Assembly: GCF_004331735.1 (NCBI RefSeq)
Contig: NZ_SJSO01000009.1
Span: 62,001-126,000, forward strand
Reading direction: 5' to 3'
From: Pedobacter psychrodurus
GTDB taxonomy: Bacteria > Bacteroidota > Bacteroidia > Sphingobacteriales > Sphingobacteriaceae
DNA length: 64,000 nucleotides
The notes under the pieces were generated by a model. That model saw only the letters and a program-made list of their open reading frames with translations, did not search any database and was not told the DNA's origin. The position numbers were made by a program, and so were the translations under genes. Below, piece after piece: positions 5,396 through 17,580 of the stretch (position 1 is its first letter; each line of letters starts with the position of its first letter).

Positions 5396-5425
5396 TTGAC
5401 AAATAAAATTTTGTTATTACATTTG
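5396..5425 (+). promoter_or_regulatory. Promoter of the aromatic amino-acid operon
   Basis: TTG (5396-5398) is followed by 19 bases and TACATTTG (5418-5425), matching the Bacteroidota -33 TTG / -7 TAnnTTTG pattern with its usual spacing. Transcription should begin near 5430, just before the leader peptide. Confidence 0.7.
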
Positions 5426-5443: not shown

Positions 5444-5506
5444 ATGCAAATTACAAACACATATTACTTTGGTTACTTTTACTATTTTAGTAAGAGCCGG
5501 GGCTAA
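5444..5506 (+). CDS. Tyr/Phe-rich attenuator leader peptide
   Basis: A 20-codon reading frame: ATG at 5444, TAA at 5504-5506, preceded by the purine-rich AAAAAGAAGAA. Residues 7-15 read YYFGYFYYF, so eight of nine codons are Tyr or Phe (five Tyr and three Phe in total). It sits between the promoter and a terminator ahead of pheA. Its last codons and stop contain AGCCGGGGCT, complementary to the 5' arm of that terminator. This is the layout of a ribosome-stalling attenuator that senses charged tRNA-Tyr and tRNA-Phe. Confidence 0.9.
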   Translation: MQITNTYYFGYFYYFSKSRG

Positions 5507-5574
5507 TATGCAAAAAGATATATAACAATATTAAAATGTATAAGAAAGTCCCGGCAAACAGCCGGGACTTTTTT
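5496..5574 (+). promoter_or_regulatory. Aromatic operon attenuator: antiterminator and terminator
   Basis: The terminator stem pairs AAAGTCCCGGC (5545-5555) with GCCGGGACTTT (5561-5571) around an AAACA loop and ends in a T-run. The alternative stem pairs GCCGGGGCT (5496-5504) with AGTCCCGGC (5547-5555): nine pairs, one of them G-U. The upstream arm lies within the last leader codons, so a ribosome reaching the stop codon masks it and lets the terminator form. A ribosome stalled at the Tyr/Phe run leaves it free and favours read-through. The structures are read from the sequence; the mechanism is inferred. Confidence 0.85.
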
Positions 5575-5588
5575 GTTTTAACGCAAAA

Positions 5589-6422
5589 ATGGAAACGACA
5601 AAACGAGTAGCAATTCAGGGTATTAAAGCATCTTTCCACGAGGAGGCCGCATACAAATTCTTTGGTAAAGACATTGAAACTGTTGAGTGTAATTCTTTTA
5701 AAGAAACCTGCGACAAGCTAGAGAAAAACGATGCCGATTTCGTAGTAATGGCTATCGAAAACTCTATCGCTGGCAGTTTATTACCAAACTATACACTGAT
5801 CAGAGATTTTGGTTTTTCGGTTGTGGGCGAGGTTTACTTACCTATCCAATTGCACTTGATGGCGCTACCAGGCGTAAAGTTTGAAGATATTAAAGTGGTT
5901 ACTTCACATCCTATCGCCATCCGCCAGTGTATCGATTTCTTTTATGATTATCCACACATTAAAATCGTGGAGAGCAACGATACTGCTGCCTGTGCAAAAC
6001 GCATTCAGGAGGAGAAATTAACCGATACCATGGCCATTGCAAATAGTTTAGCTGCAGAACTTTACAGTTTAAACATTTTAGAACGCCGTGTAGAATCGAA
6101 CAAAAAAAATTACACCCGTTTTCTAATCCTTAAAAAGGATAAAACAGACGAAGGAAAGAAAATAAATAAAGCATCAATCTGTTTTCAGGTTGGACACAAA
6201 GCAGGCTCATTGGCAACTGTGTTAAATATTTTCGCCGAACAGGATGTAAGCTTAACAAAAATACAATCTATGCCGGTTTTAGGTAAAAGAAACGAGTATT
6301 ACTTTTACGTCGACTTAGAGTGGCCAAGTACCGAAAAATATGATAAGGCGATTAGAAAAGCATTAAAATATACATCGAACTTCAACATACTAGGAGAATA
6401 CCAGAAGAACGATAAAGTATAA
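5589..6422 (+). CDS. pheA: Prephenate dehydratase
   Basis: Converts prephenate to phenylpyruvate for phenylalanine synthesis. The 277-residue protein has the periplasmic-binding-like catalytic domain (about 1-185) with AIENSIAGSLLPNY and the catalytic NYTRFLIL (Thr-Arg-Phe motif, about 175), then an ACT regulatory domain (about 195-275). The ACT motif that usually reads ESRP and binds Phe reads QSMP here (LTKIQSMPVLGKRNEYYFYVDLE). No chorismate mutase domain is fused to it, because that activity sits in the next gene. It begins 15 bases after the attenuator terminator, so it is the first controlled gene. Confidence 0.95.
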   Translation: METTKRVAIQGIKASFHEEAAYKFFGKDIETVECNSFKETCDKLEKNDADFVVMAIENSIAGSLLPNYTLIRDFGFSVVGEVYLPIQLHLMALPGVKFEDIKVVTSHPIAIRQCIDFFYDYPHIKIVESNDTAACAKRIQEEKLTDTMAIANSLAAELYSLNILERRVESNKKNYTRFLILKKDKTDEGKKINKASICFQVGHKAGSLATVLNIFAEQDVSLTKIQSMPVLGKRNEYYFYVDLEWPSTEKYDKAIRKALKYTSNFNILGEYQKNDKV

Positions 6423-6552
6423 AAAGTCGGGAGTCCTAAGTCGGGAGTCCGAAGACAAATAGTAGAACATTCAAACTTGTAATAATAAAATAATTAAAAT
6501 ATAACTTCAGACTTCCGACTAGGGACTCTGGACTTTAAACAAACCCATCATC
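6423..6552. repeat. Palindromic repeat between pheA and the DAHP synthase gene
   Basis: GTCGGGAGTCC occurs twice in tandem (about 6425-6449), and the far side of the gap carries the partly complementary GACTTCCGAC and GGGACTCTGGACTTT (about 6508-6538). The two sides can fold into a long imperfect hairpin. There is no T-run, so it is not a plain terminator. Confidence 0.6.
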
Positions 6553-7692
6553 ATGAAACTTAATTTAAACATCCAACCATTAAACACCTGGTTAAACGTA
6601 AACAACGAGCCTTTAATCATTTCTGGCCCCTGTAGCGCAGAAACTGAAGAACAATTATTAACTACAGCACATTTATTGGCTGCAACTGGTAAAGTATCGG
6701 TATTGAGAGCTGGTATCTGGAAGCCACGTACACGTCCGGGAGAATTTGAAGGTATCGGAAGTATCGGTTTAGAATGGTTAAAACGTGCTAAAGCAGAAAC
6801 AGGTTTACCAACAGCTGTAGAGGTTGCAAATGCAAAACACGTTGAAGAGGCTTTAGCAGCTGGTGTAGATATCCTTTGGATTGGTGCACGTTCTACTGTA
6901 AATCCTTTCACTGTTCAGGAAATTGCTGATGCTTTAAAAGGTCATGATGTTCCGGTATTGATCAAAAACCCGGTTAACCCTGATTTACAATTATGGATTG
7001 GTGCAATTGAGCGTATTAATGGCGCAGGAATTACTAAAATTGGTGCTATCCACCGTGGTTTCTCTTCTTTCGAGAAAAGTTCTTTCCGTAACGAACCAAT
7101 GTGGGAGCTTGCGATCCAATTAAAAACACTTTGTCCTGAATTACCGATCATCAACGATCCAAGTCATATTTGTGGTAACCGTGAGTTAATCCCTTACATT
7201 TCTCAAAAAGCATTAGATTTAGATATGCAAGGTTTAATGATCGAATCTCATGTAGATCCTTCAGTTGCCTGGACAGATGCTAAACAACAAGTTACGCCAG
7301 CGGCTTTAGCTGAATTGGTTGATCGTTTAACCGTTCGTGAACCAGAAGCACCAAACGAAGCTTTCGCTGATAAATTAGCTGATCTACGTAAATCAATCGA
7401 TAAAATTGATGACATCTTATTGCAGAAATTAGGTGAGCGTATGGCTATTGTAGAAAAAATTGGTGAGTTTAAACGCGATAACCAGGTAACTATTTTACAG
7501 GTTAACCGTTGGGATGCCATCATTAAAAAGGGTCATGCTTTTGCAAAAGCTTTAAAATTAGACTTAAACTTTACTGAGAAATTCTTAGAATTGGTGCACG
7601 GTGAATCAATCCGTAAACAAACTGAAATTATGAATGCTGGCAAAGCTGAACAAGGCATTGCTGCTGAGCAACATACAGAGGTTAAAGCGTAA
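6553..7692 (+). CDS. DAHP synthase / chorismate mutase (bifunctional)
   Basis: A 379-residue fusion of the first shikimate step with chorismate-to-prephenate conversion. Residues 15-255 are a type I-beta DAHP synthase: ISGPCSAET, RAGIWKPRTRPGEFEGIG, WIGARSTVNPF, IKNPVNPD, KIGAIHRGFSS, INDPSHICGNR, IESHVDPS. Residues 275-355 are an AroQ-type chorismate mutase with LRKSIDKIDDILLQKLGERMAIVEKIGEFK. In this arrangement the mutase commonly mediates feedback control of the synthase. It supplies prephenate to the upstream PheA, and it lies in the attenuated operon. Confidence 0.95.
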   Translation: MKLNLNIQPLNTWLNVNNEPLIISGPCSAETEEQLLTTAHLLAATGKVSVLRAGIWKPRTRPGEFEGIGSIGLEWLKRAKAETGLPTAVEVANAKHVEEALAAGVDILWIGARSTVNPFTVQEIADALKGHDVPVLIKNPVNPDLQLWIGAIERINGAGITKIGAIHRGFSSFEKSSFRNEPMWELAIQLKTLCPELPIINDPSHICGNRELIPYISQKALDLDMQGLMIESHVDPSVAWTDAKQQVTPAALAELVDRLTVREPEAPNEAFADKLADLRKSIDKIDDILLQKLGERMAIVEKIGEFKRDNQVTILQVNRWDAIIKKGHAFAKALKLDLNFTEKFLELVHGESIRKQTEIMNAGKAEQGIAAEQHTEVKA

Positions 7693-7858: not shown

Positions 7859-9127
7859 ATGTCGAAAAACGCCTTAGTTTCTTTTAAAGGAACCAAGAAT
7901 ATTAATACGGAAATCCAATTAACAGGCTCAAAAAGCGAATGCAACAGGGCTTTAATTATTAGCGCTTTAAGCAAAAAACTGGTTAAAGTTGAAAACCTTT
8001 CCAATGCTGCCGATACGGTAACCTTAAATGGCATCCTTAATAATCTTGAAGAAGAATTAGAAGTAGAAATCCAGGAATCAAAAACAGTAGATGTTGGCCC
8101 AGCAGGAACAGCCATGCGTTTTTTATCGGCCTACCTTTCGGCTAAAAATGGAAATTTCCTGTTAACCGGAACGGAACGGATGAAACAGCGCCCTATTGGT
8201 ATTTTAGCTGAGGCTTTAAGAACGATTGGCGCAGATATTTCTTATGCAGAAGCTGAAGGTTTCCCGCCATTGAATATTGTTGGCCCTTTAAACCAAAAAA
8301 CTGCTGAAGTTAAAATTAAAGGCGATATCAGTAGTCAATATATCTCAGCCTTGCTGATGATTGCTCCTATCCTACCACAAGGCCTGGTATTAGAGATTGA
8401 AGGTGAATTGACCTCGAAGCCATATGTAGATATGACTTTAGATATGCTTGCAGAAGTTGGTATTGAACATACCTGGAATGGGAATTCGATTTCCATTAAA
8501 CCACAGGCTTTTAAACATGGTACTTTGGTTGTAGAGCCCGACTGGAGCGCCGCATCATATTGGTATAGCATTGCAGCTTTAGCTGATGAAGCAGAAATTA
8601 GTTTACCTGCTTTAAAAGAAAAAAGTTTGCAGGGCGATAGCCAGATCAAAAATATCATGAAGATTTTTGGCATCGCGACCAGCAAAACCGATAATGGAAT
8701 TGCCATTAGCAACTTAGGCCTTTCTTTAGATACAAAAGAGGTTTTAGACTTAAAAACCTGTCCAGATTTAGCACAAACCATTGTCGTTATTGCAGCCGCT
8801 TTGGGCAAAAACATGGCTTTCACAGGTTTAGAAACCTTAAAAATTAAAGAAACAGACCGTATTGCAGCCCTTCAGAACGAATTGGCAAAAATAGGCGTTA
8901 CTTTAATTGAAGACAATCTGGTTTATACACTAAACACTGATCATCTTCATTTCCCAGATAAAATTACCATTGCAACCTACGAGGACCACCGTATGGCGAT
9001 GGCTTTTGCACCACTAGCATTATTGATTAACGAAGTTGAAATTGAAGAAATGCAGGTAGTAGAAAAATCTTATCCGTATTATTGGGAAGATTTGAAAAAA
9101 GCAGGCTTTGAGGTAAGAGAGATTTGA
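7859..9127 (+). CDS. aroA: 3-phosphoshikimate 1-carboxyvinyltransferase (EPSP synthase)
   Basis: Adds enolpyruvate from PEP to shikimate-3-phosphate. The 422-residue protein shows GSKSECNRALIISALS (N-terminal phosphate-binding segment), DVGPAGTAMRFLSAYL (about 82-95), RPIGILAEALR, GDISSQYISALLM, the catalytic KIKETDRIAAL (about 335) and EDHRMAMAFAPLAL (about 380). In the PEP-site loop, class I enzymes such as that of E. coli read GNAGTAMRP where this one has GPAGTAMRF. It lies third in the attenuated operon. Confidence 0.95.
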   Translation: MSKNALVSFKGTKNINTEIQLTGSKSECNRALIISALSKKLVKVENLSNAADTVTLNGILNNLEEELEVEIQESKTVDVGPAGTAMRFLSAYLSAKNGNFLLTGTERMKQRPIGILAEALRTIGADISYAEAEGFPPLNIVGPLNQKTAEVKIKGDISSQYISALLMIAPILPQGLVLEIEGELTSKPYVDMTLDMLAEVGIEHTWNGNSISIKPQAFKHGTLVVEPDWSAASYWYSIAALADEAEISLPALKEKSLQGDSQIKNIMKIFGIATSKTDNGIAISNLGLSLDTKEVLDLKTCPDLAQTIVVIAAALGKNMAFTGLETLKIKETDRIAALQNELAKIGVTLIEDNLVYTLNTDHLHFPDKITIATYEDHRMAMAFAPLALLINEVEIEEMQVVEKSYPYYWEDLKKAGFEVREI

Positions 9128-9348
9128 GACACTAGATCTGAGACATGAGATTTGAGATACTAGACGTGAGGCTCAAGAAATAAAATAACACTAATCTAAC
9201 CAGATTTGAGTGCAATTTGAGGCCGAAATCTCAAATCTAATATCTCAAATCTAACATCTAAATAATTTAAACTAAAACATCGAAGTTTAGATATGATAAC
9301 AGGAGTATTTCTCAAATCTCATATCTAGCTTCTCACATCTAAACAAAC
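9128..9348. repeat. Cluster of GAGATTTGAGAT-type inverted repeats
   Basis: The gap between aroA and aroC is filled by degenerate direct copies of GAGATTTGAGATACTAG (9124-9171) and inverse copies AATCTCAAATCTAATATCTC (9227-9246) and CTCAAATCTCATATCTAGC (about 9311-9329). The two groups can pair over much of their length. No gene is seen. Confidence 0.6.
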
Positions 9349-10446
9349 ATGGCAGGCAACTCATTCGGACAACTATTTCGCATCACCACTTTTGGCGAAT
9401 CTCATGGCGTAGCCATTGGGGTAATTATTGATGGCTGTCCGGCGCAATTGGATATCGATATGGATTTTATCCAGTCAGAACTGGACAAACGCAAACCGGG
9501 CCAATCCAAAATTACCACACAAAGAAAAGAAAGTGATACCGTTCAGATTTTATCGGGTGTATTTGAAGGAAAAAGTACAGGCACGCCTATTGCACTTTTA
9601 ATTCCGAACGAAGATCAACGATCAAAAGATTATGGTCATAACGTTGATGTTTACCGCCCTAGCCATGCCGATTATGTTTATGATGCAAAATATGGCATCC
9701 GCGATCACCGTGGCGGAGGTCGTTCCTCTGCGCGCGAAACTGCTGCCCGTGTAGCAGCCGGAGCAATTGCCAAGCTATTTTTAAAGCAACAGGGCATTGA
9801 AATTTTTGCACATGTAACTTCAGTAGGAACAATAGAAGCGCCTAATTTAGAAAGTAATGATTTATCAGCTTTATTGCAAATTAGAGAAGAAAATATTGTG
9901 CGTTGTGCTGATCCTGCAACTGCACACGAAATGATTGAATTTATTGATTCGGTTCGTAAAGATGGCGATACCGTTGGCGGAAAAATAGGCTGCGTAGTAA
10001 AAGGCTGCCCTGCTGGCTTAGGTGAGCCTGTTTTTGATAAATTACATGCCGATTTAGGTAAAGCCATGCTTAGTATTAATGCGGTTCATGGTTTCGAATA
10101 TGGCTCAGGCTTTGCCGGAAGTGAGTTAAGGGGATCGCAGCACAATGATATCCCTCAGCCAAAAGCTGCCGATTTGAAAGTTTTTAAAACTACAACCAAT
10201 TATGCCGGTGGTATTTTAGGCGGCATTTCTAATGGAATGGATATTACCTTCAAAGTAGCTTTTAAGCCTGTAGCAACCATTATGCATAACCAACAAACCA
10301 TAAATGCAGCTGGTGAAGCATCAGAGATTAAAGGGAAAGGCCGACATGATCCTTGTGTGGTACCTAGAGCGGTAGTAATTGTTGAGGCCATGGCAGCACT
10401 CGTTTTAGCTGATCAGTTTTTAAGAAACAAAGCAAGTATTATTTAA
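9349..10446 (+). CDS. aroC: Chorismate synthase
   Basis: Last common step: EPSP to chorismate, needing reduced FMN. The 365-residue protein has the three family signatures: [15 protein letters not shown] (about 12-28), [25 protein letters not shown] (about 120-145) and [18 protein letters not shown] (about 330-350). The hydrogen-bonding histidines of the flavin site are in SHG and RHDP. Start ATG follows the repeat cluster; the next gene starts 9 bases after its stop, so it may be co-transcribed. Confidence 0.96.
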
Positions 10447-17129: not shown

Positions 17130-17522
17130 ATGAAAAAGATCTTAGTATTATTCGCTTTTGTTTTAGGTTTAGGTATTGCTGTAAATGCGCAAACTAAGCC
17201 TGCAGAGTTTAAATTTGAATCGGAAACTCACGATTTCGGTAAAATTGTTTTAAACAAACCAGTAACATACGATTTTAAATACACCAACGTTGGTGAAGAA
17301 CCTTTAATTATCACCAAAGCTGAAGCAAGCTGTGGATGCACAGTACCTAAATACACTTCTACACCATTGAAAAAAGGTGAAACTGGTGTAATTTCAGTAA
17401 CGTTTAACGCTGCTGCTGGCCCATCTACTTTTTCGAAAGCCGTAACCATTACTTCAAATGCTAAAACACCAATTAAAGTGCTTTACATTAAAGGTGAAAC
17501 GGTTGCTGCAACTTCAAAATAA
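17130..17522 (+). CDS. DUF1573 exported protein
   Basis: A 130-residue secreted protein: signal peptide MKKILVLFAFVLGLGIAVNAQ, then one immunoglobulin-like DUF1573 domain with ETHDFGKIVLNKPVTYDFKYTNVGEEPLIITKAEASCGCTVPKY and the closing KTPIKVLYIKGE. The SCGCT cysteine pair is the family hallmark. Many Bacteroidota carry several paralogs of unknown role in the envelope. Flanked by its own promoter and terminator, so it is a single-gene transcript. Confidence 0.92.
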   Translation: MKKILVLFAFVLGLGIAVNAQTKPAEFKFESETHDFGKIVLNKPVTYDFKYTNVGEEPLIITKAEASCGCTVPKYTSTPLKKGETGVISVTFNAAAGPSTFSKAVTITSNAKTPIKVLYIKGETVAATSK

Positions 17523-17542
17523 TTTTTTAAACGATAATATTT

Positions 17543-17572
17543 AAAAAGTCCCGATTTTCATCGGGACTTTTT
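17543..17572 (+). terminator. Terminator after the DUF1573 gene
   Basis: Arms AAAAAGTCCCGAT and ATCGGGACTTTTT around a TTTC loop with a T-run. The -7 box of the next gene begins one base later (17573), so the two elements nearly overlap. Confidence 0.9.
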
Positions 17573-17580
17573 TATTTTTG
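17573..17580 (+). promoter_or_regulatory. -7 element directly before the aminotransferase
   Basis: TATTTTTG ends 4 bases before the ATG at 17585. Transcription would start at the start codon, as for the S4 gene at 2095. A -33 element would fall inside the terminator stem and is not evident. Confidence 0.5.

Follow-up and report, generated by a model that had tools for sequence, protein, structure and literature searches.

A predicted leader-peptide attenuator upstream of the pheA operon in Pedobacter psychrodurus and its relatives in Bacteroidota

The region upstream of pheA in Pedobacter psychrodurus very probably works as a trp/phe-type transcription attenuator in which a ribosome is the sensor. 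Sequence and comparison across species together establish the leader of this predicted attenuator and its three alternative helices, as well as their conservation, covariation and spacing. The predicted switch turns out to be widespread in Bacteroidota though missing from RNA catalogues. We give a comparative base-pair description of an attenuator family that has no Rfam model, in a phylum with little documented ribosome-mediated attenuation, and add its base-pair anatomy, its spread through the class, a protector hairpin, a spacing rule and a set of companion leaders. Plain positions refer to the 64-kb stretch of DNA that was analyzed (the window).

Leader, promoter and alternative hairpins

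5396–5425, + strand: promoter of the Bacteroidota primary-sigma type (TTGAC ... TACATTTG; −33 / −7 TAnnTTTG)
5444–5506, + strand: leader peptide ORF, MQITNTYYFGYFYYFSKSRG followed by a stop codon; relatives keep the ORF, with indels in threes and aromatic-to-aromatic swaps
5460–5484, + strand: segment 1, the 5' side of the protector, within the Tyr/Phe codons (RNA fold and pairing over 51 sequences)
5488–5510, + strand: segment 2, the 3' side of the protector, in which 5496–5504 (codons SRG-stop) form the 5' arm of the antiterminator
5507–5542, + strand: antiterminator extension, 5507–5512 with 5537–5542 (RNA fold; helix 2 in the covariation analysis)
5547–5555, + strand: segment 3, the 3' arm of the antiterminator and core of the terminator 5' arm (AGTCCCGGC), pairing with both 5496–5504 and segment 4
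5540–5578, + strand: intrinsic terminator, a 16-bp stem 5540–5555:5561–5576 (segments 3:4) with a U-rich tail

As originally predicted, the leader MQITNTYYFGYFYYFSKSRG comprises 20 codons plus a stop and contains YYFGYFYYF (five Tyr and three Phe), with control codons at 5462–5488; across six frames of the window, this is the only stretch with at least eight Tyr or Phe residues in nine codons. Several features expected of a leader-peptide attenuator coincide here: a short ORF rich in codons for the pathway products upstream of a biosynthetic operon, an intrinsic terminator between that ORF and the first gene (pheA), a mutually exclusive antiterminator that shares an arm with the terminator and covaries with it, and a protector (1:2) hairpin as in trp/phe leaders, less stable than 2:3.

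The promoter has the layout TTG-19 nt-TACATTTG, with 18 nt between its end and the leader start codon, and its TAnnTTTG box is the primary-sigma consensus given for Bacteroidota in PMC9723704. Such a box lies at most 60 nt 5' of the leader start in 128 of 146 distinct upstream regions, typically at a distance of 16–19 nt, and 124 of these 128 also have TTG at the correct spacing. Because the promoter adjoins the leader start, an arrangement shared by most relatives, the 5' untranslated part of the leader transcript is probably only ~12 nt long.

Both stems of the original prediction are present: the 9-bp alternative stem 5496–5504:5547–5555 contains one G-U pair, and the 11-bp terminator 5545–5555:5561–5571 before pheA grows to 16 bp (5540–5555:5561–5576). 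That prediction was right about the leader and these two stems, but it overlooked the promoter (5396–5425) and the protector hairpin, and its description of the logic as minimal is overturned by the conserved protector, which makes the layout a four-segment one (1:2/2:3/3:4). When folded, the leader RNA forms two main hairpins, 5460–5510 and the terminator 5540–5576. The former is the protector, which pairs 5460–5472/5476–5484 with 5488–5510, sets Tyr/Phe codons against SKSR codons and overlaps the antiterminator arm. An RNA that ends at 5557, and so lacks the last arm, folds best into the antiterminator instead (5496–5504:5547–5555 plus 5507–5512:5537–5542). Folding is far stronger than in shuffles (z = −6.6 for the whole region, −6.6 for the antiterminator and −7.0 for the terminator part). 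A terminator scan did not list the leader terminator 5540–5576, the likely reason being that its stem extends into the run of Ts; it was identified by folding.

From this arrangement we infer where transcription starts, that the ribosome stalls, that the switch operates in vivo and that transcription reads through into the genes further downstream, as follows. RNA polymerase would start ~12 nt 5' of the leader start codon, with a ribosome trailing it through YYFGYFYYF. When charged Tyr-tRNA and Phe-tRNA are ample, the ribosome would reach the stop codon and cover segment 2 (5496–5504), and segments 3:4 would then form the terminator before pheA; when either charged tRNA is scarce, the ribosome would stall in the aromatic run, covering segment 1 and leaving segment 2 free, such that the 2:3 antiterminator could form and transcription could proceed into pheA-DAHPS/CM-aroA-aroC. 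The protector 1:2 should favour termination when the leader is untranslated. At folding equilibrium, the terminator is more stable than the antiterminator at every ribosome position once segment 4 exists, so read-through must depend on folding kinetics, as in other attenuators. Before segment 4 is made, free RNA favours 2:3 over 1:2, which makes the outcome without translation uncertain.

Conservation, covariation and spacing among relatives

We searched with PheA at the level of genus, family, order and phylum and in named genomes, the closest named relative by PheA being P. borealis (100% identity over 277 residues in the search, 99.6% by alignment). Nearly all family pheA upstream regions examined carry the leader, and an aromatic-rich leader was present in 112 of 112 distinct regions upstream of pheA relatives. 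Additional genera of the family likewise have leaders, of differing sequence, as do other families of the class. The Tyr/Phe codons are kept throughout the family and beyond it. The leader is absent from a lineage in which pheA lies directly 3' of an apparent EPSP synthase gene (L212, L220, L224), as well as from distantly related pheA genes belonging to other classes in the phylum (L228–L240). Four genomes outside the class with a class-like pheA (L169, L171, L173, L179) do carry such leaders, suggesting that loss or gene transfer may be involved.

Within the control block (codons 7–15) of the 91 family leaders that have 20 codons, substitutions number 14 at the first, 76 at the second and 114 at the third codon position; they mostly preserve an aromatic residue, with second-position changes mostly swapping Tyr, Phe and Trp. 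Length differences between leader ORFs are multiples of three. This codon-wise mode of evolution points to translation of the leader. It also bears on what the leader would sense, since 31 of these 91 leaders have TGG (Trp) as their eighth codon, YWFFGYF-type leaders are common in other genera, and the operon feeds the common aromatic pathway, all of which would fit sensing of Trp in addition to Tyr and Phe, or of translation in general, and not of Tyr and Phe specifically. We consider this unlikely: the Pedobacter leader in the window has no Trp codon, and TGG elsewhere may be kept for protector pairing and need not be a sensing codon.

The two antiterminator arms, 5496–5504 and 5547–5555, covary: across 51 distinct sequences, 98% of cells in this core are paired and compensatory changes occur, one example being GC to AU at columns 69:129. 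Over its full length, the antiterminator reaches 90% pairing in the same set, compared with 19–46% in slid controls, which remove the effect of relatedness, whereas shuffle controls do not. Helix 2 of the antiterminator (5507–5512:5537–5542) is 79% paired with 3 doubly changed pairs, in a part of the alignment that is less certain. For the protector, 90% of cells are paired across the 51 sequences vs. 35–49% in slid controls, with double changes in 6 pairs, and in the terminator stem both sides have changed in 8 of 16 pairs. Leaders ending in SRD (GCCGGGACT) go with AGTCCCGGC terminators and those ending in SQD (GCCAGGACT) with AGTCCTGGC terminators, while arm pairs outside the family often differ in sequence (CGGGATT/AATCCCG, GAGGCTTT/AAAGCCTC, ACGAGGTT/AAGCCTCGT). 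Among leader/terminator pairs from distant families, 18 of 23 score above shuffled leaders (p ≤ 0.05), and L175, L217 and L226 are among several distant loci whose pairing is no better than that of shuffles. GTCCCGG is common to many distant terminators, making the swapping of terminators between loci a weaker control. Because the leader is both coding and structured, the structure may owe part of its conservation to the codons, or vice versa.

Between the last aromatic codon and the antiterminator arm lie 5–11 nt in 125 of 127 family loci. The stop codon, by contrast, keeps no set position with respect to the arm; in L186, L188 and L190, for instance, the ORF stops earlier and the position of the arm relative to the aromatic run is unchanged. 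The ruler is therefore the distance from codon run to arm, and not from stop codon to arm. We modelled a ribosome footprint whose leading edge reaches 12 nt past the first base in the A site, a value assumed from general knowledge of ribosome footprints. This model yields a full antiterminator for stalls at Y7–Y14, a partial one at F15 and none from S16 on, so the aromatic run ends where stalling would stop working. Given the assumed footprint size, the spacing fits the original proposal that a stalled ribosome would expose the antiterminator arm and a finishing ribosome would cover it.

The same data weigh against the region being an ordinary terminator or insulator accompanied by an incidental or small functional peptide, without switching. 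The leader terminator alone is very strong and similar hairpins end other genes (e.g., L002, in the same genome, and L295), yet this hairpin sits between a promoter and its own operon, its 5' arm is tracked across species by the antiterminator arm, and the distance from that arm to the aromatic run is kept whether the arm falls within the ORF or 3' of it. The latter two observations find no explanation in a peptide function, and we regard a non-switching terminator as highly improbable in comparison with attenuation.

Controlled genes and companion leaders

5589–6422, + strand: pheA, prephenate dehydratase with an ACT domain, the first gene under the predicted control
6553–7692, + strand: DAHP synthase fused to chorismate mutase (DAHPS/CM), after pheA in 80 of 80 named loci
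7859–9127, + strand: aroA, EPSP synthase
9349–10446, + strand: aroC, chorismate synthase

As far as their contigs extend, all 80 named loci keep the order pheA-DAHPS/CM-aroA-aroC, and the terminator scan listed no terminator-like site on the + strand in the gaps between the four genes. We also observed repetitive filler with a 14-nt period between operon genes, at 6424–6451 and 9120–9346 (AAGTCGGGAGTCC; AGATTTGAGA...TCTCAAATCT), which forms long imperfect inverted repeats at 9124–9262.

The earlier statement that the controlled genes supply both Tyr and Phe holds for Phe and the common precursors, but the tyrA candidate lies elsewhere, outside the operon. The sole PF02153 match in the genome (29 bits) falls in a 418-aa protein on another contig (L241:1342-2598, C9). 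Prephenate dehydrogenase models cover much of this protein, which also aligns to structures of prephenate dehydrogenase 1 (5t9e and others). Its gene starts a few nt 3' of a TACATTTG box, and no leader was found upstream of it. Taking this protein as a putative divergent tyrA product is a simpler reading than Phe hydroxylation: a route from Phe to Tyr via a hydroxylase had been suspected from the weak PF02153 match (29 bits) together with a Biopterin_H protein, and is disfavoured by the prephenate dehydrogenase alignments. With the tyrA candidate outside the operon, the Tyr codons of the leader can be understood from the shared part of the pathway (DAHP synthase, chorismate mutase, aroA and aroC) and not from a gene specific to Tyr.

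As further observations, the tyrA candidate resembles plant and fungal enzymes, and a strong PF02153 match is missing in most Pedobacter sampled and present in two (G002, G012). The biopterin-dependent aromatic amino acid hydroxylase-like protein (~600 aa; C12:353606-354409, − strand) has its domain split into two matches, and a Biopterin_H protein occurs in nearly all Pedobacter sampled.

Four other amino-acid operons in the genome are also preceded by leaders:

L291:915-978, contig C14, − strand: Thr/Ile leader MNFNTSIITTIIITTGINQRG, designed like the pheA leader and ending in QRG, with a terminator, before an aspartokinase gene (thrA-type)
L258:1215-1345, contig C20: Ile/Leu/Val leader MNINTNIISNLIIVISQKRGGNRCV with a terminator, before ilvD
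L259:1256-1405, contig C45: Trp leader MINNIHTWLWQSNSNELRWLRMNKI (TWLWQ...RWLR) with a GC-rich terminator, before trpE
L257:2189-2235, contig C13, − strand: His leader MNLTLNHHLHLHHRR, before hisG

Like the pheA leader, all four are short and rich in the product amino acid, and those of thrA and ilvD have QRG/KRG codons able to pair with the terminator arm. They differ from it in the amino acids concerned, and the pheA-leader model, run across the genome, recovers just one of them, the thrA copy, as its second-best match (44.7 bits); this leader is conserved in another genome, G073 (L292). Directly 3' of the hisG leader lies a hairpin, ATCGCC-GATA-GGCGAT, without a clear T-run, and the mechanism there may differ. 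Collectively, the pheA, thrA, ilvD, trpE and hisG leaders suggest that much of Pedobacter amino-acid biosynthesis could be under ribosome-stalling control.

Among the other matches, L002, the second DNA match in the genome, is a plain intergenic terminator and not another attenuator, and L296 and L295, weak RNA-model matches in other genomes, showed terminator hairpins with no leader. The window itself contains a weak match to the pheA-leader model at 17458–17577 (+ strand; 29.7 bits, E 0.0019), possibly just a terminator hairpin.

A broader reading, offered tentatively and at somewhat below an even chance, is that of a single old Bacteroidota design, passed on together with pheA and adopted for other amino acids as well. 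In this reading, the final leader codons would copy the terminator 3' arm (SRD/SRG = AGCCGGGAC/GGC), control codons and arm would stay a set distance apart even where the stop codon drifts, and a single leader would read Tyr, Phe and, in many species, Trp together for the shared aromatic pathway. The family may also aid genome annotation, as such leader ORFs are easily missed, and could provide a simple reporter system for transcription-translation coupling in Bacteroidota.

Comparison with known systems

No Rfam family matches the leader locus at its gathering threshold. The best sub-threshold matches there are Thr_leader and Phe_leader, at 25.8 and 25.6 bits against a cut-off of 55, which leaves the locus outside RF01859 (Phe_leader; 25.6 bits vs. 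a gathering score of 55), and no T-box was matched at the locus at the gathering threshold or among matches with E-values up to 5. A tRNA- or ligand-binding leader (T-box or riboswitch) in place of a translated one would also present a structured 5' region and terminator before an amino-acid operon, but is next to impossible here, as no Rfam family reaches its gathering score, the best sub-threshold matches are themselves leader-peptide families, and the conserved feature is an in-frame run of aromatic codons.

Comparative work on attenuators by Vitreschak et al. in 2004 may already list cases in Bacteroidetes. The authors of a 2010 study knew of no such attenuator shown outside Proteobacteria and Actinobacteria except their own find in Firmicutes (PMC2965389). 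A 2021 transcriptome of Flavobacterium psychrophilum describes, in its accessible text, a structured pheA 5' element without an Rfam match that is conserved in Flavobacteriaceae, as well as leader-peptide clues for amino-acid operons (PMC9723704). As far as that text goes, its element shares with the Pedobacter leader the gene, the phylum, suspected leader-peptide attenuation and the lack of an Rfam family; the likeness is one of description, conservation is stated there for Flavobacteriaceae only, and neither the sequence of a leader nor a scheme of base pairs is given. The original remark that ribosome-mediated attenuation is less often described in Bacteroidota is tempered by this account of a pheA 5' element and leader-peptide clues in Flavobacteriaceae, given which attenuation before pheA in the phylum is not new.

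The enterobacterial pheA leader (RF01859) resembles the Pedobacter one in its Phe-rich peptide, its protector, antiterminator and terminator alternatives, and its place directly 5' of pheA. The Pedobacter leader differs in having more Tyr than Phe codons and a Bacteroidota promoter, in placing its antiterminator arm within the last codons and the stop codon, and in its predicted control of DAHPS/CM, aroA and aroC as well. A four-segment logic in which a stalled and a finishing ribosome lead to different hairpins is established for the trp and thr operon attenuators of E. coli, and the same logic would apply here. In contrast to E. coli thr, the Pedobacter locus has no family match, with Thr_leader the best but sub-threshold hit (25.8 vs. 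55 bits).
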